This document shows positions 1 through 14,041 of a stretch of 20,796 nt of DNA, piece after piece (positions within the stretch are counted from its first letter, which is position 1; every line of letters begins with the position of its first letter). Under the pieces are notes generated by a model. It had not been told where the DNA came from. It did not search any database and saw nothing but the letters and a program-made list of their open reading frames with translations. Made by a program: the position numbers and the translations under genes. Source of the stretch: a virus; IMG/VR virus record IMGVR_UViG_3300017950_001508, positions 1-20,796 of that record; one strand, written 5' to 3'.

Positions 1-483
1 AAGCCTCAAAGCGACCCTACAGCCAGCCGAGTGGTAGATGGGTATACAGCAGACAACCTAAAGCGTTTACACAACGGTATGCCGCAACGTGCATACACTG
101 AAACCAAACGCAAATGGAGCGGTCGTCCGAGTCCTAAATTTGAAATACCTGCTGATGCAATGCATAAACCAGATGCAAAAGTGCCTTGGCATATGCAAGT
201 AGAATTTAGAGACAAAGACGGTAAAGCATGGTATATGGATCAAGCAGAACGTTTTAATGCTTTCAACTTTAACAAGTTTAAAGGCTGGAGTTGTAATGCT
301 GGTTATCAAGGTATTATCATTCGTGAGCCAGATGGCAGTGTGAAACGCAGTTATAGTTGCCACGATGTGCCTCTTGGCAATATTGAAACAGGATTTAAAC
401 TGTTTGACAAGGCTATGCCTTGTATAACCGAAAGTTGTGTCAGTAGTGCTGATAGTAAAATACCTAAGAGGAAAATCAAATGA
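1..483 (+). CDS. Radical SAM protein, C-terminal twitch/SPASM-like part (5' truncated by window)
   Basis: The frame is open from base 1 to the TGA at 481-483, so this is the 3' part of a longer gene; the GTG at 31 is internal and need not be a start. Four cysteines (codons at 292, 358, 421 and 436) sit in a GWSC ... SYSC ... PLGNI ... PC-x4-C arrangement, as in the auxiliary cluster-binding C-terminal domain of the twitch/SPASM radical SAM proteins common in marine T4-like phages. The CxxxCxxC radical SAM core would lie upstream of base 1 and cannot be seen. The tail ends in a basic SKIPKRK segment. The stop overlaps the start of the P450 gene (ATGA), indicating translational coupling. Family by motif recall; substrate unknown. 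Confidence 0.75.
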   Translation, partial: KPQSDPTASRVVDGYTADNLKRLHNGMPQRAYTETKRKWSGRPSPKFEIPADAMHKPDAKVPWHMQVEFRDKDGKAWYMDQAERFNAFNFNKFKGWSCNAGYQGIIIREPDGSVKRSYSCHDVPLGNIETGFKLFDKAMPCITESCVSSADSKIPKRKIK

Positions 484-1727
484 GGAAAATTGATTTTGAA
501 ATTGTTAATCCTGATTTCTTATACAAAATGGACGAACACATAACATTTTGTTTTAAAAACGAAGAACGCGGCTTCTTTTGGCACCCAGTATATAAACATT
601 GGATTATCTTTTCGATGGATCGCCTTAAAGAGGCATCTAAAATGAATGATAGATTCAGTCTTGCAAAAACATCTCCAGCACCATTTGATCCTACTCCTCT
701 TGGAGGTGTTTGGAGAGCAGGATATGCGTTGACACTTCGTGAAGGTCCGCATCACCACCTTGCTAAAAAACATAGTTTAGATTGGATTAAACGTCGAGCA
801 GGCGATTTTACAAAAATCTTTACAGATAACTTATATAAAGATCTTGACTCGATTAAAAAGGGCGTTCCATTTAAAGCATACGATGTCATAGGCAAAACAG
901 TAACAGATACCCAAGTTCAATCAATTGAGTTTCCGTGGGATGCATTGGATGTTACTGAAGATTATGTAAAAGACGGATTTCATAAGTGGATGCGTCCTGG
1001 AAATGTATTTTCAAACTTTAATCCGGACTTTGATTACGATAAGCCTGTATCAGAGACTACTGAGTTTTATAGTATGTTCTCTCGTATAGTTAACGAAGCA
1101 ATAGAATATTATCATAACAATGATAAAGATTACGATACTATGATTAATATGACTAAAAACCTCAACGACAAACAATCTGAATATAACGATAATCCTAAAC
1201 TAATGGCGTATATGTTTATTCAGTCTTTATGGACAGTGGTTATTCCTACATTTTCGTTAAGTTTATATCAGAACATTTTAATGAACTTTTGTAAATATCC
1301 AGATATTGTTAAACGTATAAAAGAAGATAGGTCTTTAGTTTCTGCATTTGCTAGAGAAAGTTTACGATTAGCACCTTTAAAGGGCGGCGTACGAGATATT
1401 GTTGACGATACAGTATTTCATGGTTATAAGTTTGATGGAGGCGGCCGCATTTTGTTATATACATATGGTGCCAATCGAGATCCAAAATATTATAAAGATC
1501 CGTTAGTATTTAGACTTGAAAGAGATAACGAACCGTTGCCGGTAACACTTGCATATGGCCCGCATCATTGTACAGGTGATTTTCTTGTTAAGCATTTTTT
1601 AGAAATTATTACAAATGCATTATTAGATAGATTTGATACGTTTGAGATTACAAGACAGCCTGAGCTATTGCCTGCTATGTTTGGAAGTACAACTGTTTAC
1701 AAAGATTTAGAAATGGTATTTTCGTGA
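480..1727 (+). CDS. Cytochrome P450 family protein
   Basis: The 415-residue length matches bacterial soluble class I P450s. The K-helix ExxR motif is E293-S-L-R296. The meander follows as ANRDPKYYKDPLVFRLER. The heme loop is AYGPHHCTG with C364 as the expected axial thiolate, although the usual phenylalanine of FGxGxHxCxG is replaced (AYGP). The I-helix region around residues 250-260 reads TVVIPTF. T257 could be the conserved threonine, but the acidic residue normally before it is absent (P256). P450s usually insert one oxygen atom using O2 and electrons from a ferredoxin/reductase pair; no redox partner is encoded here, so host electron donors would be needed. The altered oxygen-activation site leaves room for peroxide use or other chemistry (inference). 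The start overlaps the upstream stop (ATGA) and the end overlaps the next gene (GTGA). The protein has no N-terminal membrane anchor. P450 genes are rare in phages. Confidence 0.88.
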   Translation: MRKIDFEIVNPDFLYKMDEHITFCFKNEERGFFWHPVYKHWIIFSMDRLKEASKMNDRFSLAKTSPAPFDPTPLGGVWRAGYALTLREGPHHHLAKKHSLDWIKRRAGDFTKIFTDNLYKDLDSIKKGVPFKAYDVIGKTVTDTQVQSIEFPWDALDVTEDYVKDGFHKWMRPGNVFSNFNPDFDYDKPVSETTEFYSMFSRIVNEAIEYYHNNDKDYDTMINMTKNLNDKQSEYNDNPKLMAYMFIQSLWTVVIPTFSLSLYQNILMNFCKYPDIVKRIKEDRSLVSAFARESLRLAPLKGGVRDIVDDTVFHGYKFDGGGRILLYTYGANRDPKYYKDPLVFRLERDNEPLPVTLAYGPHHCTGDFLVKHFLEIITNALLDRFDTFEITRQPELLPAMFGSTTVYKDLEMVFS

Positions 1728-2239
1728 TAGAAACAAGGATTATATCTAAACCTACCTTGCAGTTATTAGAATTCATTAATGAATGTGATAGGATGAATTA
1801 CAATAATAACAATAGCCTAGAGTCTATGAAATTTAATAACACATTACGTATTGGCGGAAACTGGTTCGCCACTTTTCATAATACTAAAATTGTTGGCATA
1901 AGCGGAGTACATCCATTCCTCAACGGTATACGAGCATTATTTAGAGGATGTCAACTTTATTCAATTCCTGGCGGATTAAGTAAGAATCATATGAATTGTT
2001 GGATGTTTCGCTATCACTTGCCTATAGTAATTAATATGTACAGCAATAAGCCTATATACATAACAACTAATACCGAAACTGACCACAGCGGCAAAATGTT
2101 AAAGTTAAACAAACTTTATCACATACTTGAAAAAAAACAAATAGTAGAACATCTAGGGTGTCAAAAGGTTTTTGATACCGAACAAAATATATGGAAACTA
2201 AATATAAAAGAATATTGTAAGATAAACCCGGAGATTTAA
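1724..2239 (+). CDS. GNAT-like acyltransferase fold protein
   Basis: The gene encodes 171 residues and starts at a GTG that overlaps the P450 stop (GTGA). The layout resembles diverged GNAT N-acyltransferases of marine phages: an N-terminal helix, a strand pair GGNWFATF..KIVGISGVH (about residues 44-63), a RALFRGCQLY segment, a THTxTDHSGKM-like helix start near residue 120, and a closing IWKLN strand. A clear Q/RxxGxG/A acetyl-CoA loop is not visible, so activity and acyl donor are uncertain. In context it could transfer an acyl group activated by the adenylating enzyme two genes downstream, but that is inference. It is one codon-tight member of the + strand operon; its TAA directly abuts the next ATG. 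Confidence 0.5.
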   Translation: MIETRIISKPTLQLLEFINECDRMNYNNNNSLESMKFNNTLRIGGNWFATFHNTKIVGISGVHPFLNGIRALFRGCQLYSIPGGLSKNHMNCWMFRYHLPIVINMYSNKPIYITTNTETDHSGKMLKLNKLYHILEKKQIVEHLGCQKVFDTEQNIWKLNIKEYCKINPEI

Positions 2240-3427
2240 ATGAAGATTGCTATATTAGGTGCTGGAAGTGCAGGGGTATTAACTGCAGGCTGTTTACTTA
2301 AAGATTTTAAAAATCGTGAAATTGAGTTAGAGCTTACCCATGTATATGATCCAAGTAAGCCTATCCTCGGAGTAGGTGAGAGTACAACGTCAGAAGTAAC
2401 CTTTGCTATTGGTCAGGCATTTGATTTCATATTTGCAACAGAAGCAAAAGAACTCAACAGCACAACTAAGTACGGCACACATTACATTGATTGGAGAGAG
2501 AAAGATATTATTTTTCCTTTTCAATCAGGATATCATGCTATCCATTTTGATGCAAAAGATTTTGTTAAAATGGGCATGGAACGCTTAAAAAAATTATATA
2601 ATAGTTATACTGTATTACACGGTAACGTAGAAAGAGTATCGCAAAGTTTTACTGATTATACTAACGAATCAAGAGGCGGCGAACTAACCGTAGACGGAAA
2701 ACTGCACATATTTGATTATATTATCGATTGTCGAGGTAGACCGACAGATTTTACTGATTACAATGAATGTAACCTTGTTCTAAACTCTGCTTTGGTATAT
2801 GATGATCCAACACCATCTGATTTTGGATTCACACGTCATGTTGCTCATAAGTATGGATGGATGTTTGTTATTCCATTACAACATAGGACATCTCATGGCT
2901 TCCTGTACAACAGTGAGTTTTGTACACGTGAAGAAGCTGAAAAGGAACTTATTCGTATCACAGATGCAACAGATGCAGATACAAAAAACTTCCGTACATT
3001 TGATTTAAAACCATATTATTGTAAGAAGACAGTTGACCAACGTTTATTAAAAAATGGAAACTGTGCAGTGTTCTTTGAACCAATGAGTGCAAATTCGTTG
3101 TATATGGCTGTTAAAAACTGTCAAATACTTTCTGATTATATACGAGGCGAAATTAACGGCTCTCGAGCAAACGAGCTATGTATTTTAAACTATCGTGCAG
3201 TAGAAGATTTAATTAACTTAATCTATCATGGAGGCTCTATATACAAAAACGAATTTTGGGACTGGGCAAAGAAAACATCTGCTGAACGTATAGAAAAGAC
3301 TGATGTATTGAAACGATATGTAAAAGGGCAAAACGACGAAATGTTTAAAACTATTACTGAACGGTTCATGGGTCATCACGTTTTAAAATACGTTGACCAA
3401 GAGTTTGGATTTCATTACTTTGATTGA
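2240..3427 (+). CDS. Flavin-dependent tryptophan halogenase-like protein
   Basis: The 395 residues start at an ATG abutting the previous TAA, with GGAG six bases upstream. The FAD-binding GxGxxG is seen at the N terminus (GAGSAGVLTAG). GVGESTTSE follows, matching the GEST/GEAT signature of the PrnA family. K77 in TTKYGTHYIDW aligns with the catalytic lysine (K79 of PrnA), and W207-M-F-V-I-P212 is a variant of the WxWxIP halogenase motif with Phe for the second Trp. EPMSANSLY (E280-Y288) lies where PrnA has the PLESTG chloride/substrate loop, so the catalytic Glu and the chloride-contacting Ser-Thr appear replaced by S283, A284 and N285. The fold is therefore well supported, but halogenation is doubtful; it may be a flavin monooxygenase or oxidase, or use another acid. 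PrnA is about 540 residues, so this is a short member. Related genes are annotated in marine T4-like phages. No flavin reductase is encoded here. Confidence 0.82.
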   Translation: MKIAILGAGSAGVLTAGCLLKDFKNREIELELTHVYDPSKPILGVGESTTSEVTFAIGQAFDFIFATEAKELNSTTKYGTHYIDWREKDIIFPFQSGYHAIHFDAKDFVKMGMERLKKLYNSYTVLHGNVERVSQSFTDYTNESRGGELTVDGKLHIFDYIIDCRGRPTDFTDYNECNLVLNSALVYDDPTPSDFGFTRHVAHKYGWMFVIPLQHRTSHGFLYNSEFCTREEAEKELIRITDATDADTKNFRTFDLKPYYCKKTVDQRLLKNGNCAVFFEPMSANSLYMAVKNCQILSDYIRGEINGSRANELCILNYRAVEDLINLIYHGGSIYKNEFWDWAKKTSAERIEKTDVLKRYVKGQNDEMFKTITERFMGHHVLKYVDQEFGFHYFD

Positions 3428-4160
3428 TAAATTAGAACATATTATTGTAAATGGCATAACTATTAAAACATCGGGTACATCCGGAGTTCCAAAAGAGATA
3501 TATCAGCCCCCAAGTAAAATAGTAGCAGATGCCAAATGTGCAATCCAAGTTCAGGATATTAATGTGCATAGTTCTATATACACTTGTTTAAGTTTAGAGC
3601 GTGCTGGAGGATTGTTTGCCCAATCTATTCCAGGATTGATAGCTGGTGCAACAGTTAACTTTGATAAATTTAATCTATATAAATATACTAAAGTAGCAGA
3701 TAGATATACTCATACACATTTAACCCCAAAGCAAGCAAAGGGTGTTATGTTAACAAAGGGATTTAAAACACTTGACTTAACCGGCAAAACATTTTTAGTA
3801 GGATCTGAGCCCGTCACGTATGATATTATTGAAGGTTTTATCAATCGAGGTGCTCGAGTAATATGTATATGGGGAATGACCGAAGTTGGAGTAAATGCCA
3901 TTATGCATATATTTAATAACATAGAAGAAGTGTATGCACTTAAAGATATTACGCCTGCTAACTCTACTGTACTCGGTAATATATTTAACTGTGATTATAA
4001 GATAGACAAAGAAAATAGATTATTAGTAAAAGGTGATATATCTGTATATGGGGACAACTGGTTTAATACACAAGATCAAGTAATAGAACAAGACGGAATA
4101 TTATTCTACATTGGAAGAAACGGCACTCCAGTAGACTTTAATAATCCAAGGAAAGGATAA
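3420..4160 (+). CDS. Minimal adenylate-forming (AMP-binding) enzyme
   Basis: The ANL-superfamily core motifs are present in order, numbered from the TTG at 3420. The P-loop is TSGTSGVPK (residues 17-25, motif A3), A5 is WGMTE (151-155), A7 is NTQDQ with ribose-binding D219, and A8 is YIGR with R233. Family members convert a carboxylate to an acyl-adenylate and often then to an acyl-CoA. At about 246 residues it lacks the usual N-terminal 150 or so residues and ends straight after A8, with no C-terminal lobe and no A10 lysine. If functional it would keep ATP and carboxylate binding but not the domain-rotating second half-reaction (inference). There is no ATG. TTG at 3420 overlaps the upstream stop by 8 bases; TTGs at 3393 and 3405 are alternatives with longer overlap. 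The acid substrate is unknown; the short GNAT-like neighbour is a possible acyl acceptor enzyme. Confidence 0.78.
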   Translation: MIDKLEHIIVNGITIKTSGTSGVPKEIYQPPSKIVADAKCAIQVQDINVHSSIYTCLSLERAGGLFAQSIPGLIAGATVNFDKFNLYKYTKVADRYTHTHLTPKQAKGVMLTKGFKTLDLTGKTFLVGSEPVTYDIIEGFINRGARVICIWGMTEVGVNAIMHIFNNIEEVYALKDITPANSTVLGNIFNCDYKIDKENRLLVKGDISVYGDNWFNTQDQVIEQDGILFYIGRNGTPVDFNNPRKG

Positions 4161-4161
4161 T

Positions 4162-6237
4162 ATGAAAACATATGATGTTATAATCATGACTGAAGGCAGC
4201 GACCCGGTATTTAATGTAGCACGGGGAATCGGCGGCTATAAAATTGCATCTGCTTTACGCAATGAAGGATATAGTGTTTTTGTATTAAATAACTTTTCAC
4301 ATTGGATTAAAAACGGAATGATTAAACAAATTCTTGACAAGTTAATCGGTGATAACACACTATGGGTTGGATTTAGTTCTTCGTTGTTTATGAGAAAGAG
4401 TAACGAAGTATATACCAAACGACATACACGAGATACTAATAAAAAAAATATTCTTTGGCGCTGGCCTACTGAAGACGAAGATATTAGAAAAATGACTGAT
4501 TATATTCGATATACCAAAGGTGTAAAAACTGTATACGGCGGCAGTATGTCATATCATCGAGCCGAAGAAGTTAAAAATGAAATAGATTATTATGTAGTTG
4601 GAATGGGCGAACATACTGCATTAAATATTACTAATCACTTAAAAAATGGTACAGATCTTAACTATAATGCCAATCTCGGAACTACTCCCTATATATTTGA
4701 TTATGATCAAAAAGGAGCGTTATTTGATTTTAGAAATACAAAAGTAAACTATATTCCAGAGGACTTTTGGAGTGCGGAAGAAGCTATGGGTATCGAATTT
4801 GGCCGTGGATGCATTTTTAAATGTAAGTTTTGTGCTTATCCATTGATAGGAAAGAAAAAAGGCGATCAATCTTTTTTAAGAGATAAAGAATGTATCAAAC
4901 ACGAATTAAAACAAAACTATGAGTTATATGGCACTACAAAGTATATAATTATCGATGATACATTTAATGAGCAGACTGTTAAGCTACAAGCTATTGCAGA
5001 TGCCATAGAAGAAATTAATCTACCAGAACAACTACAGTTTTCGGCATTTATACGTATTGATCTTGTAGCAAAATGGCCAGAGCAACTAGAACTACTTAAA
5101 AAAATCAATGTGTGTTCTTGGTTTCTCGGTGTTGAATCGTTGAATTATGAGTCAGCCAAGACAATCGGAAAGGGTTGTCCTAGCGCAACAATTTTTGAAA
5201 CAATCAGAAAATCTCGAGAAGTATTTGATGGATCGTTAAGTGTTTACGGTAGCTTTATTGCTGGGTTGCCTTATGATAGTAAAGAAACAATGGATGTTTG
5301 GACTAAGGATGTTATTAAAAACAAAGATCTGTTTGATGCTTTTTCTTTTAGCCCATTAGAGCTCGGCACAGCATCTGAGCTTTCAAAAAATCCAGAAAAG
5401 TTTGGCTATACAGTATATACTGATGATGAAAAGCAAAACAAATGGCGTACTAAAGATTGGGATAGTGACGAGGCTGTTGAATACGTAAAAGTACTTACAA
5501 AAGATTTTATCGATGATATTAAAGTTTCTACCTTCTTTTTAATGTTTTATCAGTGTCTTGGATATTCATTCGAAGAACTTAGAAAAATGACATTTACTGA
5601 ATTATTTACAAGTGCCGAGCCTCGTCGTAAAGCACGGCATTTTTTAGAAAAATCTTATTATTCAAAAGTTGAAAACCTTTTAGAAATAAAGAAGCCCGAA
5701 CCTAATATAAGATATATGAAAAACTTATCGGTTAACCAAGATTTAAAATCTAAATTAAGAAAAGAGTTTTATGAAAACAAGTCACTTGCTAAAGTATTTA
5801 CTGCTTCCAACGAGCACGAAACAAAAAGCATTGATCATCTTCGTGTGATTAGACAAGACGATATGTCTAATTGTAACGTAGCAAATAGTATAGCAAATCA
5901 TGTTAGTTCTATTATTGGTTGCAAAGCTGTTCCTAGGTATTATATACAAGACGGAGATAGTTACCTATCTCCTCATCGTGATCATGGAACAATAACTGCT
6001 TTAAATATAATACTAGATGGCGACGGTCCTATAACATGGAATAGTCCTATATCCTGGAACGAAGATATCGATGTCTATTATGAAGGTGCTTTGCTTAATG
6101 TACAAGAAGAGCACAGTGTACAAACATATAATGAAAGAGTACTTTTTAAACTAGCAATTTTTGATAAAAGTTATGACGAAGTATTAGAAGCAATCAACGG
6201 CAAAGAAGGAGATTTATTTGGCATTGATTCATTATGA
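4162..6237 (+). CDS. B12-binding-type radical SAM protein fused to a C-terminal 2OG-oxygenase-like domain
   Basis: This 691-residue protein shows three parts. Residues 1-165 resemble the Rossmann-like B12-binding domain of class B radical SAM enzymes (GGYKIASALRNEGY near the start, YGGS... and VVGMGEHT later; no DxHxxG, as is common in this class). Residues 210-440 hold the radical SAM core with C217-IFK-C221-KF-C224, preceded by GIEFGRG. After a linker of about 120 residues, residues 570-680 form a double-stranded beta-helix-like oxygenase domain with H605-R-D607, a distal H651 and R659, the spacing of the Asp/Asn beta-hydroxylase-like 2OG-Fe(II) family. B12 radical SAM enzymes typically methylate or rearrange unactivated carbons; 2OG oxygenases hydroxylate. 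The fusion suggests two successive steps on one substrate (inference). The start follows the previous TAA by one base after an AAGGAAAGGA ribosome site. The substrate is unknown. Confidence 0.85.
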   Translation: MKTYDVIIMTEGSDPVFNVARGIGGYKIASALRNEGYSVFVLNNFSHWIKNGMIKQILDKLIGDNTLWVGFSSSLFMRKSNEVYTKRHTRDTNKKNILWRWPTEDEDIRKMTDYIRYTKGVKTVYGGSMSYHRAEEVKNEIDYYVVGMGEHTALNITNHLKNGTDLNYNANLGTTPYIFDYDQKGALFDFRNTKVNYIPEDFWSAEEAMGIEFGRGCIFKCKFCAYPLIGKKKGDQSFLRDKECIKHELKQNYELYGTTKYIIIDDTFNEQTVKLQAIADAIEEINLPEQLQFSAFIRIDLVAKWPEQLELLKKINVCSWFLGVESLNYESAKTIGKGCPSATIFETIRKSREVFDGSLSVYGSFIAGLPYDSKETMDVWTKDVIKNKDLFDAFSFSPLELGTASELSKNPEKFGYTVYTDDEKQNKWRTKDWDSDEAVEYVKVLTKDFIDDIKVSTFFLMFYQCLGYSFEELRKMTFTELFTSAEPRRKARHFLEKSYYSKVENLLEIKKPEPNIRYMKNLSVNQDLKSKLRKEFYENKSLAKVFTASNEHETKSIDHLRVIRQDDMSNCNVANSIANHVSSIIGCKAVPRYYIQDGDSYLSPHRDHGTITALNIILDGDGPITWNSPISWNEDIDVYYEGALLNVQEEHSVQTYNERVLFKLAIFDKSYDEVLEAINGKEGDLFGIDSL
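6206..6211 (+). promoter_or_regulatory. Ribosome binding site fixing a TTG start
   Basis: A full AAGGAG lies inside the end of the radical SAM gene, six bases before the TTG at 6218. It supports that TTG as the start of the downstream oxygenase, because no ATG lies nearby in frame. Confidence 0.7.
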
Positions 6238-6796
6238 TACAATAAACTTACCGATAGTCGAAGGTCTGTTAGAAGAATTAGACAACTTAAATTTAGAATG
6301 GTTCAAACCTTCTAATCCACACAGCGCTCAACAGATATGTTTAAATGCCGCACCAGGCTATACAGATGATTATAGCTTTGGGGCTGGTTACTTTGCAGAT
6401 AAAGGCAAGTCTGATTTCTTTATTAGACTTACACCAGAAGGAGATGTTAGAATACCAATGTCTCCAAAGTCAGTATACGACTGGGAGCTGTGTGATGTTT
6501 TTAAAGGCACATTGTTTAATCACGCCTATTGTGTATTAGAAACAAAATACACTGTCGGTAGAGTGCGTCTATTAAAATCAAAACCGTATACTTGTATGAA
6601 TTGGCATATAGATCCAATTCCTCGTATACATTATCCAATACAAACCAACGAGGCTTGTCTTATGATTATCGAAGATGAAGTATACCATTTACCAAAAGAT
6701 CAATGGACATTTGCTCATACAGATAAAGGAAATCATACTGCGTTAAATGCTAGTAATATTGATCGTATTCATTTAGTAGCAGATATATTACCATGA
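6218..6796 (+). CDS. Aspartyl/asparaginyl beta-hydroxylase-like 2OG-Fe(II) oxygenase
   Basis: This 192-residue protein has the metal facial triad H130-I-D132 and H173, plus the 2OG-binding-type R183. These sit in the family's usual surroundings: NWHIDPIPRIHYPI, then TNEACLMIIEDE, HLP, NHTALNAS and DRIHLV. Family members hydroxylate Asp/Asn or related groups using 2-oxoglutarate, O2 and Fe(II). Stand-alone copies are frequent in cyanophages and pelagiphages with unknown targets. The TTG start overlaps the previous gene by 20 bases behind a strong AAGGAG, and the stop overlaps the methyltransferase start (ATGA). The N-terminal 90 residues carry no motif I recognise. It is one of three such domains in the window, the others being the C terminus of the upstream protein and a - strand gene at 13487-14041. 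Confidence 0.82.
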   Translation: MALIHYDTINLPIVEGLLEELDNLNLEWFKPSNPHSAQQICLNAAPGYTDDYSFGAGYFADKGKSDFFIRLTPEGDVRIPMSPKSVYDWELCDVFKGTLFNHAYCVLETKYTVGRVRLLKSKPYTCMNWHIDPIPRIHYPIQTNEACLMIIEDEVYHLPKDQWTFAHTDKGNHTALNASNIDRIHLVADILP

Positions 6797-7470
6797 TATT
6801 TAAAAAACTTAATGTGTTTAATATATTTGATCAGTTTGTAACTGATTACAAAAATAAAAAAATATTAGACTTTGGAGGAAACCGAGGTAATCTAATTAGT
6901 TATAGCAACGGCAAAATCCATGAAAAAAACTATACTTGTATGGACGTAAGTAAGGATTCATTGAATGCTCTTTTAAATGAACACCCGGCTGCAAATGTAG
7001 TTTATTGGAACAGATACCATTCTATATATAATCCTGCTGGTAGTAAAACAGAAACATTTCCAAATATTGGAATATTTGATATTTCGTTTGCTAACAGTGT
7101 ATTTACTCATCATAACTTAGAAGAACTACTTTATTGTGTAGAAAACCTATGTACCATATCTACATATGTATATTTTACATATATCGATCCATCTAATCAA
7201 AAAATATTTGATATACTTCATAATACGCACAGAACAATAGATGTTTCAGAAAAACAAATGAAAAAAATACGCAGCAATAAAGTTTCGTATATTACAAATA
7301 ACGATAACATGCTATGGTCTGTATTTGATACGGTCGAACTTAAAAAGTCTATAAAAAAATATTCTAGATTTCAGTTATCTATAGAAGATGGACTAACAGA
7401 CGGATTTAACTGGATGAAAATTACAGTGTTAGATAGAAATATTATTGTACCATCTTTAATAGGATATTAA
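6793..7470 (+). CDS. Class I SAM-dependent methyltransferase
   Basis: The 225-residue protein has motif I ILDFGGNRGN (residues 24-33) after a short helix, the acidic post-II residue in CMDVSKDSLN near residue 51, and a motif IV-like FDISFANSVFTHHNLEELL near residue 97. The order and spacing are those of Rossmann-fold methyltransferases, which move a methyl from SAM to O, N, C or S. There is no N(D)PPY motif, so an adenine-N6 or cytosine-N4 DNA methylase is unlikely; a small-molecule or protein methyltransferase fits better. It starts with an ATGA overlap on the oxygenase and is followed after one base by the PP-loop gene, so it belongs to the same coupled operon. The substrate is not deducible. 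Confidence 0.78.
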   Translation: MIFKKLNVFNIFDQFVTDYKNKKILDFGGNRGNLISYSNGKIHEKNYTCMDVSKDSLNALLNEHPAANVVYWNRYHSIYNPAGSKTETFPNIGIFDISFANSVFTHHNLEELLYCVENLCTISTYVYFTYIDPSNQKIFDILHNTHRTIDVSEKQMKKIRSNKVSYITNNDNMLWSVFDTVELKKSIKKYSRFQLSIEDGLTDGFNWMKITVLDRNIIVPSLIGY

Positions 7471-7471
7471 A

Positions 7472-8170
7472 ATGATTTTTACAAAAGATGATTTTCCAGA
7501 TGGACCACCTAAGCAAGTTATATTAATGTTATCAGGCGGATTAGATTCTGCAATATTATTTTATTTAATTTGCAAACACTTTCCAAAAACTTATATTGTT
7601 CCGTTTTCAGGTGATGATGCATGTAATCCTGCAGACATACTTTGTGCTTATGATATTTTAAAATTTATGCGTAAAAGATTTCCTGATGCTAACATAGGAA
7701 AGCACGAAACATATAGATTTGACACTAATGATACTTTTTGGTTTAAAAAAGCTAAGGATCAATTTGATAACTTTACTTTTTCGTCAATAGAAGGATTATC
7801 AAAATATTTTCAGCTAATGGCGGCTCTTAAGAAAGTTAGAGAACAAAATAATATATTAACATTTGTTAATGCAGTAACAGCTAACCCACCAAATGAAGAA
7901 ATGAACCTGCACGGGTTAGAAAACGGCGCAGATCAATATAGAAATGTTTGTATTGAGCCAAGACTATCCAAAACTATATATGGAAATGTTCTGTATAAAC
8001 CGTGGATAAACACAAACAAGCGCGACATAGCAAAGATTTATAAACAAGAAAACTTAATGGAATCATTATATAAGTTAACAAAATCGTGCGTAGATCCTAC
8101 TGCTACTTATGAAAAAAGGGAATGTGGATTATGTTGGTGGTGTCGAGAAAAAAAATGGGGATTTGAATAA
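7472..8170 (+). CDS. QueC-like PP-loop ATPase (7-cyano-7-deazaguanine synthase family)
   Basis: The PP-loop SGGLDS is at residues 21-26, preceded by hydrophobic VILML. The C terminus has C206-x11-C218-GL-C221-WW-C224, matching the structural zinc site of QueC, and ends in KKWGFE. The total of 232 residues equals the QueC length. QueC uses ATP to turn 7-carboxy-7-deazaguanine and ammonia into the nitrile preQ0. QueD, QueE and FolE are not in this window, so a deazaguanine role depends on genes elsewhere or on the host. Other PP-loop ATPases of this shape make amide or nitrile bonds on adenylated acids, which would suit the operon (inference). It follows the methyltransferase by one base. It is the last gene before a late promoter, so it probably ends the tailoring operon, although no terminator is visible. 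Confidence 0.75.
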   Translation: MIFTKDDFPDGPPKQVILMLSGGLDSAILFYLICKHFPKTYIVPFSGDDACNPADILCAYDILKFMRKRFPDANIGKHETYRFDTNDTFWFKKAKDQFDNFTFSSIEGLSKYFQLMAALKKVREQNNILTFVNAVTANPPNEEMNLHGLENGADQYRNVCIEPRLSKTIYGNVLYKPWINTNKRDIAKIYKQENLMESLYKLTKSCVDPTATYEKRECGLCWWCREKKWGFE

Positions 8171-8203: not shown

Positions 8204-8211
8204 TATAAATA
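8204..8211 (+). promoter_or_regulatory. T4-type late promoter
   Basis: An exact TATAAATA box sits in the 70-base gap before the small membrane-protein pair. The start codon follows 29 bases after the box, with AAGGAG at 8229-8234. T4-like phages use this element with their late sigma factor, so the pair should be expressed late and separately from the enzyme operon upstream. Confidence 0.75.
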
Positions 8212-8240: not shown

Positions 8241-8450
8241 ATGACTACATTAACTGCACACTGCGAAAAGGCTGACACTGGATATTTTGGACATCTTAAA
8301 ATTGGATCACACATGGTATTTTGGTCATTGGCAGTATTTATAACAAGTACAATACATGCTATCTTTCCATTTGTGCTTGAAGCATCATCTATGAATGCAG
8401 CAAAGAAATTGGCAAGTTTAGTAGACACAACATTTGAGCATCATAAATGA
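8241..8450 (+). CDS. Small DUF6356-like membrane protein, copy 1
   Basis: This 69-residue protein has one hydrophobic segment (about residues 28-47, MVFWSLAVFITSTIHAIFPF) holding the family-type IHAxFPF motif, preceded by GYFGHLK. It is then amphipathic to the end. It starts at an ATG six bases after AAGGAG and 29 bases after a late promoter. The similar order of motifs in the next gene (GYF-H, then a hydrophobic stretch, then IHAxFPF) indicates a tandem duplication. Assignment to DUF6356 is by recalled pattern. The function is unknown. Late expression and a short transmembrane protein would be compatible with a membrane role such as lysis control, but nothing proves that. The stop overlaps the next start (ATGA). 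Confidence 0.7.
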   Translation: MTTLTAHCEKADTGYFGHLKIGSHMVFWSLAVFITSTIHAIFPFVLEASSMNAAKKLASLVDTTFEHHK

Positions 8451-8751: not shown

Positions 8752-11734
8752 GGATATAGTTTATTTGTATACCGCTAGTACGCAAGCCAGATTTTATTTT
8801 ACTTTTACGCTTTGGAAATACTGTTTGAGTAAACTGTGTTGCATCTTGGTATATAACCTTTGGTGCTTCGTCAGTTTCTATACTAGGATAGTCAGTCCAG
8901 TTAGCCTCGGTTGCAGTTGTTGATTCAGATCCATAATAAAAGTTATCAGTTGTTTGTCCTGGCATGTTTGAAAGATATGTTTTAATATCTGCATATGTCC
9001 AGTTTCTATTAAACTGCACTAAGGTAGAAATAAATCCAGCTGCACATGGACACGCTGCACTTGTACCACTAAATCCTGTATCCTCGGGTACTCCTGAACC
9101 ACTACCGCTGTTGGCAGTAAATCCAGAATATACAGCAGGGTACCTGCCTTCTGGAGTATAGCTTTTATTTGCTGATAATATTCCATCTGCAGGGGCATAC
9201 AAGTCTATACCATTGCCTCTGTCGCTATATCCAACTTTGCGTTCTTTTGCACCAACAGCATGATCATCATCCAATGCACCAATGTTGATTGTTTTATATG
9301 TAACTTCACCATTGCTAATAAGCGGTCCGTTGTTGTATTCAGGGTCCTGCGTACTTCCGTTACTTACAACATATCCTGATACACCTGCCAGACTTGGATC
9401 GTCTTGTGCTGGTGTGTTTCCATCTTGGAATATGCTTCTAATAGTAGCAAGTGATGGTTTGCTAATAACTGGAGCAATGTATGTGTTGTGTAGTGCGTAT
9501 CCTAGCGGATTGTTTGCTAGAATGCCTGCTTGAGTACGCATTAAATCACTCCATTCAGGAGCAAGACTTCCGCCATCCCATAATTCTGTGTATTCAAACA
9601 TTGCAAAGTTCAGTAGGAACAAATATTCTTTTGCGGCTACTTCAAATGCATCCCCATCAGTCTTCCAAGTGTCTCCGCCGTATCCCGAACTATCCCACAT
9701 GCCTGCATCGTATGCTTCTTCCATAGCCGCATACAGTGGACCACTTGCCCAGTCTGCACTAATATAAGAATACAACTTTAATGACACAGCATCTAAGCCA
9801 TGCATATGAAGTGTATGGAATACGTGTTCAATAACTTCTTGTGCATCGTTGTCACCGTCTCCGTAACCATCGCCGGTTGAATTCAAATACCAAACCATAT
9901 CGTTTGCTACATGGCTATCAAATAGTGGTGATAGATTCCAAAAAGTAATACCATCATCTGTTAAGAAGTTTGTGCTATAGTCTCCACCGGCGCCTCTTGC
10001 TACTCGTTGTAGTGTTGGTCCTTGGGCTGCATGATAAGTTCCTGCGTCACCACTGAGTGTTTTAATAACAGTTCTTTGTGCAGCTTCATTAATACCTGCG
10101 GCATTTTTGTCTAAGAAAAGTTCAAACATACGTCCAACTTTTTCTAACCATGCATCTGGCACTGCTACCTGCCCGCCAACGCTACCGGCTCCTACAATAC
10201 GTACACCATTAACTGTAAGTTCACGCTTAAAGAAATCGCTACCGAGACCGTCACTTAAATCATGTTTGCCACCTTGTTGCGGAAATCCACGTCTATTGGT
10301 TGTACCAGTGGTTTCTACGCTAAATTCAAAATAACTGCTTTCTTCGATAGTGTCATCGCTGTTGGCACTGATATAGTTGTCAAAATCAGGATGCCCCCAG
10401 TTGGTTTGTTTTTGGTTACTGTTGCCAGCAGCACACACAAATATTACTCCGCTGTCGATAAGTTCGTCTAATGCAGTTGTAAGTGAGTTGGTTTTCATTT
10501 CACTTTTCCAGCGACCGCCATCTCCTTGTGATCCCATATGTGAGATAAATGTAGGTTCTGCACCTGTTCCTGCATATGTTACAGGAGCATCTTCTCTAAA
10601 ATGATACCATCCTGGGTTTGAACCTTTGCTTGCACGATATCCCCAACTGTTTGAACTTACAGTAGGGTCTTGTGTGCCGTATGCAGGATTTACTGGTTTT
10701 GTATTGTGGAATATTTTTTGTAAATCAAAGCCTGGTTCGATGTCAGTACTATTAGTGCCATATAAGTTAAGTGCCCATTTGTTAGCGTTGTATGCCCAGC
10801 CCTGTGTTCTACCGTATGTAAGCGCCATACAGGGCGTACAGTGCTGTCCTACAGTGCTTGGTATTGTATTTGTGCCGTTGCAATATGCTCTTGTGTATCC
10901 GCTTGTAATAAACGATACGATACCTGCACTAGGAAACTTTGCATTGAATACACTACTTCTATTGCCTGTGCTTGTCCACCAACCTCTTGCAAAACTTTCT
11001 ACAGGTACAATAGTACCATCCCAACGTGTTATAAGTCTATTATCTGGATCTGCATTAAAATAATCTGGATCTAAATAATAAGGTGCATCTAAACATAAAT
11101 CTAGTACATCGCAACTTCCGTTACCTGGTAGTAGATTACCACCTATGTATCCATTTGGTTTTTCGCCTTCTGTGTCCCTATTGAACTCAGGGTGACCGAT
11201 CCATCCAGCGCCATCATCAGCTACAATGACATCAACATGCTTGCCGTCTCCCCATTGAGGTATTTTACTTGTTTTTACAACGTTATCTGCGTCACCGCCT
11301 TCTATCCAAGGATCGACTAGTGTGCTACCTCTTAATGTTCCCCAGTTGGTTCTATTGATATCTGTTGAATCAGGTGTGCCGGGCAATGTGTTTGAAGTTT
11401 CCATTTCTTTGTAAACTTTAACTGTATTTTTGTATCTATTAAAGTTTTTTGGAGCACTTGCATAAAGTTCGTCCGGCGGCGCCTTATATGTTTCAGGATA
11501 TTTCGAGTAATCGATATTGATAAACTTTATACGTGGATCTGCTTTTAGTGCAGTTGCTTCTGCATCTGTTAAGGAAAAACTTCCTCTTGTAAGACTATGT
11601 TCTTTTTCATCTGTGCATGTGCATACTCTATCTGGAATAGTTGCAATCCCATTAGTTGCTTCGCAAAGTTGATTGTGTATTTCGATATATTGTTCTGCTG
11701 TATTCGTTCCTAACGAATAATATTGTTCACTCAT
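8732..11734 (-). CDS. Subtilisin-family (S8) serine peptidase-like phage protein with a large insertion
   Basis: The 1000-residue protein carries the subtilase triad in order. D173 is in VIVADDGAG with a following HPEF, H298 is in GQHCTP (the usual HGT has become HCT), and S892 is in GFSGTSAACP. The oxyanion Asn is N438 in VCAAGNSNQ. Between N438 and S892 there are about 450 residues instead of about 65. This stretch includes an alpha-rich segment near residues 540-770 with a His cluster, E636-H637-x2-H640-x2-H643-x-H645, that looks metal-binding. There is no signal peptide and the N terminus begins MSEQYYSLG. It is the last gene of the late structural block, 11 bases after the tail fibre gene, so a virion or tail-associated protease is the likely role (inference). 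It is preceded by AAGGG near the start and ends inside the shared terminator hairpin. Cysteines are numerous for a phage structural protein. Confidence 0.85.
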   Translation of the reverse strand: MSEQYYSLGTNTAEQYIEIHNQLCEATNGIATIPDRVCTCTDEKEHSLTRGSFSLTDAEATALKADPRIKFINIDYSKYPETYKAPPDELYASAPKNFNRYKNTVKVYKEMETSNTLPGTPDSTDINRTNWGTLRGSTLVDPWIEGGDADNVVKTSKIPQWGDGKHVDVIVADDGAGWIGHPEFNRDTEGEKPNGYIGGNLLPGNGSCDVLDLCLDAPYYLDPDYFNADPDNRLITRWDGTIVPVESFARGWWTSTGNRSSVFNAKFPSAGIVSFITSGYTRAYCNGTNTIPSTVGQHCTPCMALTYGRTQGWAYNANKWALNLYGTNSTDIEPGFDLQKIFHNTKPVNPAYGTQDPTVSSNSWGYRASKGSNPGWYHFREDAPVTYAGTGAEPTFISHMGSQGDGGRWKSEMKTNSLTTALDELIDSGVIFVCAAGNSNQKQTNWGHPDFDNYISANSDDTIEESSYFEFSVETTGTTNRRGFPQQGGKHDLSDGLGSDFFKRELTVNGVRIVGAGSVGGQVAVPDAWLEKVGRMFELFLDKNAAGINEAAQRTVIKTLSGDAGTYHAAQGPTLQRVARGAGGDYSTNFLTDDGITFWNLSPLFDSHVANDMVWYLNSTGDGYGDGDNDAQEVIEHVFHTLHMHGLDAVSLKLYSYISADWASGPLYAAMEEAYDAGMWDSSGYGGDTWKTDGDAFEVAAKEYLFLLNFAMFEYTELWDGGSLAPEWSDLMRTQAGILANNPLGYALHNTYIAPVISKPSLATIRSIFQDGNTPAQDDPSLAGVSGYVVSNGSTQDPEYNNGPLISNGEVTYKTINIGALDDDHAVGAKERKVGYSDRGNGIDLYAPADGILSANKSYTPEGRYPAVYSGFTANSGSGSGVPEDTGFSGTSAACPCAAGFISTLVQFNRNWTYADIKTYLSNMPGQTTDNFYYGSESTTATEANWTDYPSIETDEAPKVIYQDATQFTQTVFPKRKSKIKSGLRTSGIQINYIQKWDRG

Positions 11735-11745
11735 ATTTCTAGCCC

Positions 11746-13428
11746 TTAGATTAAGTTAGCCCAAGCACCATTCTCATATCCTTGGAATTTGTTGTCAGTT
11801 GTATTATAAATCATATCGCCATTTTCGGCAGCTAGTGCATCACGTTCTACAGTAGTAAAACTTGCTAGTTTAAACGGACTACTCGATACCTCAACTCTTG
11901 TTCCTGCTGCAAGAATAATATCAGTGTCACTTGATATCTCTGGTGTTCCGCTGGCATTGGTAATAATATTTTCAACTTCGATTGTATCTGCAATAATCTT
12001 GTTTGTAACTATAAGATTGTTTTCTATAGTAACATCGCTGTTCATAACAACAGCAGGAATAAATGTGATTGCACTTGAGTCTGCGCTATCTATTGTTCCT
12101 GAAATAACTGCGTTAGTTGTTTCGATAGGACCGATAATCTTTCCAGCCGCTCCGTCTATCATAGTACTACTATCGTCAGCAAACACACTACCTTTTATAT
12201 CAAATGCAGATCCTGCTTGTATAGCATCTGTAATGCCGTATCCTGCTAGTGTTGTTGGAGTTACACCTAAATCAGTAAAATCTACTACTGTATTGGTAAT
12301 AGTTATATTACCTTCTGCATCACTTGTTGTAGTAATATTAGTTCCGCCTAGTATGCCAATAGTTTCTTGACCGTTAACAACTCTTAATGTACTATCGTCT
12401 GCTGTGATATTCCAGTGTGAATAGTTGTCAGTACTGCCGCCGCCACCACTAGATACTTCACGCATGTTTAACCAGTTGCCAGCTTCAAATATTTGATATC
12501 TACTGGTTGTAGTGTTATAGATCATCATACCTTCGGCACCTGTGAGTGCGTCACGTTCTTCCGTTGTAAATGATCCTGTTTGTATAAAGCCTGATGCTTT
12601 AGCATTACCGACTACATCTAATGATTCAGTTGGAGTAATTGTACCAATACCAAACTTTTTTTCCTTAAATGCAAAATAGTCAGTAGGATCTACAAAAGAA
12701 CCAGTTGATGATGATGAAAATAACAAGGCATTTTCTCTACCTACGATTATCCCTGTTTCCAATAATCCATTGGAATCATTTCTCGAAAATCGTATCATAC
12801 CGTAGTTTATTGCAGTATCTCCAGTTAAATCTAATTCACTTTCTCTTTGAAGTTGTAAAGCGCCGAGGTTGTTAACTGAGTTTACTACAATTCTAGATGA
12901 CACAGCGTTATTATCATTTCCAAAATTGTAGTCGTTAGATGTACTTTTATATCTTTCTACATTTATGCTACTATTAACACCGTCTACTAGTAATGTGCTA
13001 TCGTCGCCGAACACACTACCAGTCATATCACCATCAAATGTACCTGTTACAGTTCCAACAACATTACCTGTTACATTACCTGTTACATCACCTATGAAAC
13101 TATTAGCGGTTATTATGCCAGTACCTGCACCGCTTGCCGTAATATCTCCTGATATATTAATATCACCATCACCGACAATTTCTTGTCCAGTAATACTTAA
13201 ATCAACATCAATACTAATGTTTGCGTCACCGAGTGTTAACACCGATGCTGTAGCATTATCGGTAATACCAGTTAAACTTCCGCCACTACCACCTTGTAGT
13301 ACACCTCCGGGTGTAATTCCATCGCCAACGTATAGTTTTTTAGTATCAGTAACATATATTATTTCGCCCTCTGCCGGCGTAATACTTGTCCTGTTTGCTT
13401 CTGTTCCGCGTCTTAGCTTTAAAGCCAT
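11746..13428 (-). CDS. Phage tail fibre / virion structural protein
   Basis: The 560-residue protein opens with the marine-phage fibre signature: LKLRRGTEANRTSITPAEGE, then IIYVTDTKKLYVGDG and a Gly-rich GGSGG. The middle is beta-rich with Gly/Asn/Val/Thr repeats (GNVTGNVVGTVTG) and two copies of GSVFxDDS...DGxxxxI. Two copies of a module with FTTxERDAL, MIYNTT and NGAW/AGNW lie near residues 280-330 and at the extreme C terminus (about 510-560). Such proteins form host-binding fibres or attachment structures on the virion. The ATG at 13426-13428 is preceded by AGGAG and lies about 30 bases after a GATAAATA late promoter. The subtilase-like gene follows and shares the transcript. The receptor target cannot be inferred. 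Confidence 0.83.
   Translation of the reverse strand: MALKLRRGTEANRTSITPAEGEIIYVTDTKKLYVGDGITPGGVLQGGSGGSLTGITDNATASVLTLGDANISIDVDLSITGQEIVGDGDINISGDITASGAGTGIITANSFIGDVTGNVTGNVVGTVTGTFDGDMTGSVFGDDSTLLVDGVNSSINVERYKSTSNDYNFGNDNNAVSSRIVVNSVNNLGALQLQRESELDLTGDTAINYGMIRFSRNDSNGLLETGIIVGRENALLFSSSSTGSFVDPTDYFAFKEKKFGIGTITPTESLDVVGNAKASGFIQTGSFTTEERDALTGAEGMMIYNTTTSRYQIFEAGNWLNMREVSSGGGGSTDNYSHWNITADDSTLRVVNGQETIGILGGTNITTTSDAEGNITITNTVVDFTDLGVTPTTLAGYGITDAIQAGSAFDIKGSVFADDSSTMIDGAAGKIIGPIETTNAVISGTIDSADSSAITFIPAVVMNSDVTIENNLIVTNKIIADTIEVENIITNASGTPEISSDTDIILAAGTRVEVSSSPFKLASFTTVERDALAAENGDMIYNTTDNKFQGYENGAWANLI
13061..13093. repeat. Short 12-base tandem repeat inside the tail fibre gene
   Basis: ACATTACCTGTT occurs at 13061-13072 and again exactly at 13073-13084, with a partial copy to 13093. 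On the - strand it encodes a Gly-Asn-Val-Thr type four-residue repeat. Such runs can change copy number by slippage. Confidence 0.7.
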
Positions 13429-13456: not shown

Positions 13457-13464
13457 TATTTATC
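13457..13464 (-). promoter_or_regulatory. T4-type late promoter (GATAAATA) for the tail fibre block
   Basis: The - strand reads GATAAATA, fitting the NATAAATA late box of marine T4-like phages. It is in the 58-base gap between the oxygenase gene and the tail fibre, 29 bases before the fibre start. Confidence 0.6.
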
Positions 13465-13486: not shown

Positions 13487-14041
13487 TTAAGAAATACAAA
13501 AAACTAAATGTACACGAGCATATTTACTTGCATTTATTGCAGTATGTTGCAATCTGGTATTTACAAGATATGTATTGCCAAATGGAAGTCTTACAACTTG
13601 ATCGTTAATGATCATCATACAGTTTTCGTTTGTATAGATCGGAATATGTATTCTTGGAGATTGATCTGTGTGATAAGTTAAACAAGTCTTATGTTCCATT
13701 AGCATAAACCTGCCTCTTGTAATATTGTATTGTTGATTAATTTTTTCTACAACAGTTTTAAAATAGGTGTTTTTATAGATATTGCATAACTCTGTAAAGT
13801 CTTCTTGTTTGTATATTTTTTTTCTTAATGGCAGTTTTCCATTAGGATTTTTATCATATTCTACCCAGTCATAAAAAAGACTGCCACAACTTTCATACAA
13901 TTGTATGTCTGATGGACAGCCTTTTCTACATTGTAAAGCAACTTGTTTCAAGTTACTTTGGAGTAAATGGTCTATATTTAAACTGTTATACGTATCGATA
14001 ATTTTGTTATAATCGATATCTAAATCAATTTTAGTTATCAT
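13487..14041 (-). CDS. Aspartyl/asparaginyl beta-hydroxylase-like 2OG-Fe(II) oxygenase (second stand-alone copy)
   Basis: The 184-residue protein has H124-T-D126 in TYHTDQSPRIHIPI, distal H166 in QHTAINAS, and R176 in ARVHLVF, the full metal and 2-oxoglutarate set. TNENCMMIINDQ and RLPFGN between them match the + strand copy at 6218-6796. The N-terminal 100 residues differ, with several cysteines (QCRKGC, ESCGS). It starts with an ATGA overlap on the upstream gene and lies just before the tail fibre promoter. This suggests it belongs to the structural block rather than to the enzyme operon. A role in hydroxylating virion or host proteins is possible but unproven. Confidence 0.82.
   Translation of the reverse strand: MITKIDLDIDYNKIIDTYNSLNIDHLLQSNLKQVALQCRKGCPSDIQLYESCGSLFYDWVEYDKNPNGKLPLRKKIYKQEDFTELCNIYKNTYFKTVVEKINQQYNITRGRFMLMEHKTCLTYHTDQSPRIHIPIYTNENCMMIINDQVVRLPFGNTYLVNTRLQHTAINASKYARVHLVFCIS

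Follow-up and report, generated by a model that had tools for sequence, protein, structure and literature searches.

The window analysed here, the 20,796 nucleotides at positions 1-20,796 of IMG/VR virus record IMGVR_UViG_3300017950_001508, opens with an operon of tailoring enzymes (g1 to g9 and two further genes; Table 1). The explanation that we tentatively prefer is a late, modular tailoring pathway built on a core of acyl activation and acyl transfer, with a virion component as the most likely acceptor. An enzyme set that is conserved and late, on a core unseen in cultured phages and bacteria, suggests that these phages probably make, or decorate, something chemically unusual during particle assembly. 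Nine open reading frames (ORFs) on the + strand fill positions 1-8170. An earlier note on this DNA, made from the letters alone, saw no gap larger than one base on this strand, which is exact, because the ORF listing gives junctions of 4-35 nt overlap or 0-1 nt gap. Profile searches of the window proteins (Pfam, NCBIfam and PHROGs) confirm most enzymes named in that note: P450, halogenase-like protein, AMP-binding enzyme, radical S-adenosylmethionine (SAM) enzyme, Asp/Arg hydroxylase, methyltransferase and QueC. The incomplete first ORF, taken there for the end of a radical SAM enzyme, has no match alone; its complete homologue in L001 matches Radical_SAM (7.7e-15), as expected from that assignment. 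L- and G-numbers are labels of relative loci and contigs in IMG/VR.

The cluster is a genuine, phage-resident and conserved operon, and no known pathway fits it, as the note had also held. Scanning IMG/VR with the halogenase gave 15 contigs and with the P450 20 contigs, which reduce to 14 lineages non-redundant at 95% nucleotide identity, the window counted in. The note proposed conservation of gene order as a check and saw scattered, decayed or unlinked genes as grounds for doubt; in these 15-20 independent contigs the genes are linked and intact, in the order P450, GNAT, (halogenase), ANL, B12 radical SAM, (2-oxoglutarate (2OG) oxygenase), methyltransferase, (DUF6356). They are under strong purifying selection, with ratios of non-synonymous to synonymous substitution (dN/dS) that lie within 0.036-0.2 in almost every core gene; the rare exceptions above this come from pairs almost without synonymous change. 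The junction to phage genes at ~8.7 kb recurs in five relatives (L001, L008, L013, L014 and L041); therefore a chimera of bacterial and phage sequence near 8.2 kb, the other doubt raised in the note, does not account for the operon. The carriers are a family of uncultured T4-like marine phages. Among T4-like genes elsewhere on their contigs, baseplate gp6 is nearest to Sinorhizobium phage phiN3 (39.7%), and the primase-helicase to Methylophilales phage Melnitz (51%) and Sinorhizobium phage phiM12 (53%).

The invariant heart of the operon is a truncated ANL enzyme (g5) together with a GNAT-fold acyltransferase (g3), often accompanied by DUF6356. A scan with divergent homologues finds the short ANL protein to be a phage family of 70 loci, on contigs of up to 383 kb. 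In 40 of 43 non-redundant loci the GNAT gene is on the same strand as the ANL gene, with starts ≤1.7 kb apart, and two of the three exceptions are contigs ending at the ANL gene. ANL and GNAT distances correlate (r = 0.64; 0/2000 permutations). DUF6356 accompanies ANL at 18-20 of the 43 loci and a third family, of ~250 aa, at 25, this last being fused to GNAT in L096 and L099. Further recurrent neighbours are a sulfotransferase-like family, methyltransferases, 2OG oxygenases, radical SAM/SPASM proteins, g1-type radical SAM proteins and QueC-like ATPases. Given this wider ANL-GNAT family with its recurring neighbours, the window operon is a common phage module in elaborated form.

The two core proteins are atypical. 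No sequence family of Pfam, NCBIfam or PHROGs matches g3; its AlphaFold model (pLDDT, the model confidence score, 86.7) has its best Foldseek match to GNAT acetyltransferases (7.6e-6), and among the matches listed, out of 52 at E≤0.001, nearly all are GNAT-type acyltransferases, so that the GNAT-like character proposed for this ORF stands. Viral ANL proteins (224-267 aa) share motifs A3, A5, A7 and A8 with the MenE/acyl-CoA synthetase class (SGT[ST]G-x-x-K, WGMTE, Asp and GR conserved) and end at the A8 hinge. Unlike that class, every viral homologue aligned lacks ~150 residues at its N-terminus and all of the C-terminal domain, which bears the A10 Lys. The TTG start of g5 at 3393 is uncertain. 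An N-terminal ANL-like protein detected by Pfam beside the module in L119 makes a split ANL activity possible. Genes seemingly split into N-terminal and central pieces occur in L119 (8158-9186, Pfam) and, judged by eye, in L166 (12013-13449) and L113 (14378-15995). TctA-/TctC-like tripartite tricarboxylate transporter genes lie at nine of the 43 non-redundant ANL loci (L099 12841-15367; also in L113, L136, L155 and L161).

The nine genes singled out in the note are not the natural unit. Both g1 and g9 are accessory, relatives can lack the halogenase, and the functional unit extends past g9 to 8707, via two DUF6356 genes on the same strand. Upstream of the P450 three arrangements occur, namely the g1 radical SAM gene (window, L001, L041, L042, L047), a gene for a 100-aa protein, c10 (L002, L003, L005-L007, L010-L012, L015, L049, L057, L059), or neither (L008, L009, L013, L014). 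Four loci (L041, L042, L047 and L057) have no halogenase gene, and the first three of them carry the 2OG gene in inverted orientation. The g1 fragment is 90.6% identical to L001 7129-8241, whose product is complete (370 aa) and has CNYKCSYC; g1-type homologues also lie upstream of the ANL-GNAT module in L117, L118, L121, L142, L144, L150 and L152, and QueC-like homologues of g9 near it in a subset of loci. Two observations concern the region upstream of the cluster. Contig G001 (L034-L036, ~3.3-35 kb) holds many radical SAM/SPASM-type genes there, with methyltransferases, a nitroreductase-like and an aminotransferase-like gene, and L002, L003, L006, L011 and L012 have a gene of ~319 aa for a membrane protein that by eye resembles a phosphate permease.

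In 50,697 cultured phages there is no relative of the P450, the B12 radical SAM enzyme or DUF6356, and c10 and the ANL and GNAT proteins of L096 likewise have no relatives among cultured phages. A pattern scan of 84,980 prokaryote species genomes, which detects close relatives only, finds neither the P450 nor the GNAT, and on these empty scans a bacterial origin was rejected, within that same sensitivity. Searches of open-access papers turned up no account of such a cluster. The phage-borne biosynthetic gene clusters of Dragos et al. 2021 are likewise multi-gene biosynthetic sets on phages, described, as relayed in PMC10452541, as interbacterial weapons; unlike the clusters so described, the operon sits among T4-like late genes, and its families are undetected in the prokaryote scans made here.

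The predicted timing of expression points to the virion. In marine T4-like phages the late promoter has been published as NATAAATA (PMC2984593). This motif is found 23-42 nt ahead of the opening gene of the cluster in all eight loci that begin with c10 and all three that begin with the P450, thus in 11/11 relatives, which are partly dependent since L003/L006 and L008/L013 are near-identical; the background is 90 of 20,000 random positions (0.45%). Elsewhere in these contigs the same motif marks mainly tail fibre, baseplate and other structural genes. A late motif also precedes the DUF6356 pair in 7/10 loci, that at 8204-8211 of the window among them. Raw counts of TATAAATA in the window are not enriched, and the motif is informative only by its position relative to start codons. 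The operon is probably expressed late, by the same signal as virion genes; for the window version we infer this from the relatives, because the window begins inside g1 and the G001 array is without a late motif. In L037 (9596-10573, on the T4-like contig G006), a gene that by eye is HemE-like (uroporphyrinogen decarboxylase) also has a late-promoter motif upstream.

The neighbourhood points the same way. An Mtd-type tail fibre gene lies beside the cluster, accompanied by the late motif GATAAATA at 13457-13464, and in L136, L138 and L147 one late promoter stands ahead of a block made up of the tail fibre, a protein of no recognized family, GNAT, DUF6356 and ANL. This neighbourhood and these single-promoter blocks, read from gene order, favour a virion component as the putative acceptor. 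The earlier statement that such enzymes do not belong to phage structure is therefore too strong, since a virion-coupled modification is indicated at least equally by the late promoter and the nearby tail fibre. Directly upstream of the tail fibre gene and on its strand lies a second 2OG oxygenase (13487-14041, - strand; 31% identity to g7). Within the adjacent subtilase gene, 0.9 kb (9366-10243) has 79% DNA identity to cyanophage S-RIM2; no other part of the window comes close to any cultured phage.

In the proposed mechanism, ANL would convert a carboxylate to its acyl-adenylate, perhaps aided by a partner protein because its catalytic-lysine domain is missing, and GNAT would pass the acyl moiety on to an amine. 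Oxidation, alkylation or methylation of this acyl group, or of the molecule that accepts it, would be the work of the P450, the flavin enzyme, the B12 radical SAM enzyme, the 2OG oxygenases and the methyltransferase. A virion component produced at the same stage would most likely serve as acceptor, with the neighbouring Mtd-type tail fibre, or its glycan, as the leading candidate, and swaps of tailoring genes would diversify the phage surface. Glycan-modification islands of large phages carry methyltransferase, glycosyltransferase-, sulfotransferase- and radical-SAM-type genes near tail fibres, as is the case here. To our knowledge, a P450, a flavin enzyme, a B12 radical SAM enzyme or an ANL-GNAT core occurs in no described island of this kind. 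It is tempting to go further, with less confidence, and to propose that large lytic phages own a class of late tailoring pathways on a phage-specific truncated ANL-GNAT core, which modify the receptor-binding apparatus and are diversified by P450, halogenase-like, B12 radical SAM, 2OG oxygenase, sulfotransferase-like and methyltransferase enzymes. This would be a category of post-translational virion chemistry undescribed before.

Several points weigh against a late pathway acting on the virion. In the window-type arrangement, the radical SAM array of G001 upstream of the P450 has no late motif, and no late promoter precedes the modules of L095 and L096. A tail fibre is recognised at only 13 of 68 ANL loci, with a narrow motif detector, and the tail-fibre region may be a mere hotspot for cargo. 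The truncated ANL, which has no lysine-bearing C-terminal domain, may not adenylate on its own. Finally, both the acceptor and the product of the pathway are ones that we infer.

The main rival, rather unlikely in our estimate, is a pathway for a free small molecule, a halogenated or oxidised acylated metabolite made late in infection and directed at the host, co-infecting phages or bacteria nearby. The enzyme types are those of natural-product tailoring, and a FabF-like ketosynthase with an intact-looking active site lies shortly downstream of the cluster in L005 (16486-17709) and its relatives L004, L007 and L015. The flavin enzyme g4 is a distant relative of cyanophage enzymes including VirX1, which halogenates many small aromatics (PMC8407142), and is 34.5% identical to the S-SSM5 protein. 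With these tryptophan-halogenase-like proteins (phrog_2928) it shares family and catalytic Lys. It has the flavin adenine dinucleotide motif GAGSAG (GxGxxG), and its invariant Lys77 aligns with Lys79 of PrnA/RebH. In contrast to VirX1 and its cyanophage relatives, g4 has no active-site Glu (PrnA E346/RebH E357), which is replaced by Ser (EPMSANS versus EPLESTG), and reads WMFVIP where WxWxIP is expected, the second Trp not being kept; RebH served as the yardstick in this comparison. The same Glu is absent from phenol halogenases (PMC8407142), and judged from its residues g4 could perform phenol-type halogenation or hydroxylation, both being possible. In cyanophages S-SSM5 and S-SSM7 the halogenase-like gene stands among ordinary phage genes, whereas g4 is inside a tailoring operon. 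A free metabolite leaves the late promoter and the tail-fibre neighbourhood unexplained, and its halogenase, with serine for the active-site glutamate, is dispensable. The enzyme density, called characteristic of natural-product clusters in the note, makes such a product possible, but the core contains no carrier protein, non-ribosomal peptide or polyketide synthase, exporter or clear precursor peptide.

Modification of the host envelope is improbable. Here a lipid or surface glycan would be acylated, hydroxylated and methylated, for superinfection exclusion or virion release. The best NCBIfam model for the B12 radical SAM enzyme g6 is a lipid-biosynthesis family (TIGR04072, 1.2e-17), relatives of the P450 include alkane- and fatty-acid-oxidising enzymes, small hydrophobic proteins are encoded within the operon, and glycosyltransferase- and sulfotransferase-like genes are neighbours. 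PF05118, the family of g7, includes lipid A and ornithine-lipid hydroxylases, which also counts for an envelope target. However, g7 has by eye no transmembrane segment, and its closest solved structures are beta-hydroxylases (PDB 7v4f, 'beta-hydroxylase', 5.6e-13) and a proline hydroxylase; its triad H130xD132...H173 and R183 are invariant. Moreover, exclusion would predict early, not late, expression. In g6, named in the note as a fusion of B12 radical SAM and oxygenase, the radical SAM and 2OG-like domains are present, and the cobalamin-binding match (PF02310, 2.9e-5) is below the Pfam cut-off, with no DxHxxG. Its CxxxCxxC motif is CIF[KR]CKFC in 13/13 sequences checked (CIFKCKFC in the window). 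The C-terminal domain (~5719-6234, HRD) is a separate ORF in L004, L005, L007, L015, L041, L042 and L047, and keeps HxD except in L008 and L014.

That the 100-aa c10 serves as the substrate, giving a peptide natural product or a modified protein, is quite improbable. Across IMG/VR c10 occurs solely and directly upstream of this P450 (12/12 loci: L202-L211, L049, L059), it heads the late transcript, and its C-terminal GW-x-I-x-F-x-P-x-TADL is conserved (P-x-TADL invariant) while the remainder varies. However, structure prediction folds c10 into a compact ferredoxin-like domain (pLDDT 94.6) with the conserved tail inside the sheet, and 6/14 lineages, the window included, have no c10 at the site upstream of the P450. 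In a search for precursors of ribosomally synthesized, modified peptides, its motif was absent from window-type and L008-type loci. Homology to c10 in L155/L161 reaches only ~12 bits and is not relied on. The protein may be a substrate, a scaffold or a chaperone. Peptide pathways of the ApyO/ApyD type, which pair a P450 with a B12 radical SAM enzyme, match g2 and g6 weakly (1.6e-4 and 7e-6, far below curated cut-offs); in contrast to them, no short precursor peptide is recognised in the operon, and its ANL and GNAT core is not shared as far as tested. The P450 itself has 415 aa in nearly all relatives, with 75-94% identity in the aligned set, invariant ExxR (E293/R296) and an invariant heme loop YGPHHC (Cys364). 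The acid-alcohol pair of its I-helix is absent, an invariant Pro256-Thr257 aligning with the Asp-Thr of P450tol.

A pathway for nucleotide or DNA modification, suggested by the QueC-like ATPase and the radical SAM genes, is very improbable, as the QueC-like gene is accessory, no other deazaguanine gene is recognised in the window (a partial contig), and the operon has the promoter and the location of virion genes. An assembly chimera or decaying host cargo, in keeping with an operon more AT-rich than its flank, is rejected with near certainty on the same cluster and downstream phage genes in independent contigs, the shared junction and the dN/dS values.

Table 1. Features of the window, in order of position
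Feature	Position	Strand	Evidence
g1, C-terminal part of radical SAM enzyme, accessory	1..483, 5'-open	+	homology to complete L001 protein
g2, cytochrome P450, 415 aa	480..1727	+	PF00067 1e-12
g3, GNAT-fold acyltransferase, core gene	1724..2239	+	AlphaFold model and Foldseek
g4, flavin-dependent halogenase-like, optional	2240..3427	+	PF04820 Trp_halogenase 4.5e-31; phrog_2928 2.5e-66
g5, truncated ANL (AMP-binding) enzyme, core gene	3393..4160	+	PF00501 5.3e-11, profile 170-378
g6, B12-type radical SAM enzyme fused to C-terminal 2OG-oxygenase-like domain	4162..6237	+	Radical_SAM 9e-15
g7, Fe(II)/2OG oxygenase, Asp/Arg hydroxylase family	6218..6796	+	PF05118 Asp_Arg_Hydrox 1.5e-5
g8, SAM-dependent methyltransferase, DFGGNRGN	6793..7470	+	PF08242 Methyltransf_12 2.3e-6
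g9, QueC-like PP-loop ATPase, Cys motif, accessory	7472..8170	+	PF06508 2.2e-8
T4-type late promoter motif TATAAATA, -37 from DUF6356 gene	8204..8211	+	
DUF6356 protein 1, 69 aa, hydrophobic stretch	8241..8450	+	PF19883 6.6e-7
DUF6356 protein 2, 86 aa	8447..8707	+	PF19883 6.5e-8
Subtilase-domain phage protein, 1000 aa	8732..11734	-	PF00082 6.3e-12; phrog_9158 4.4e-80
Tail fibre, Mtd N-terminal domain (major tropism determinant)	11746..13428	-	PF18454 Mtd_N 1.4e-12

As a rule, the auxiliary genes of phages code for isolated enzymes derived from their hosts. The pathway described here is complete, under selection and made up of several enzymes, and it appears to be owned by the phage and timed with virion assembly. 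If the virion is indeed decorated, this would add a chemical layer to host recognition by abundant marine T4-like phages; if a free compound is made, these phages would be an unrecognised source of natural products. Either way, they carry compact, phage-specific enzymes, such as a minimal ANL, a P450 with an atypical I-helix and a fusion of B12 radical SAM enzyme and oxygenase, whose functions are directly testable.

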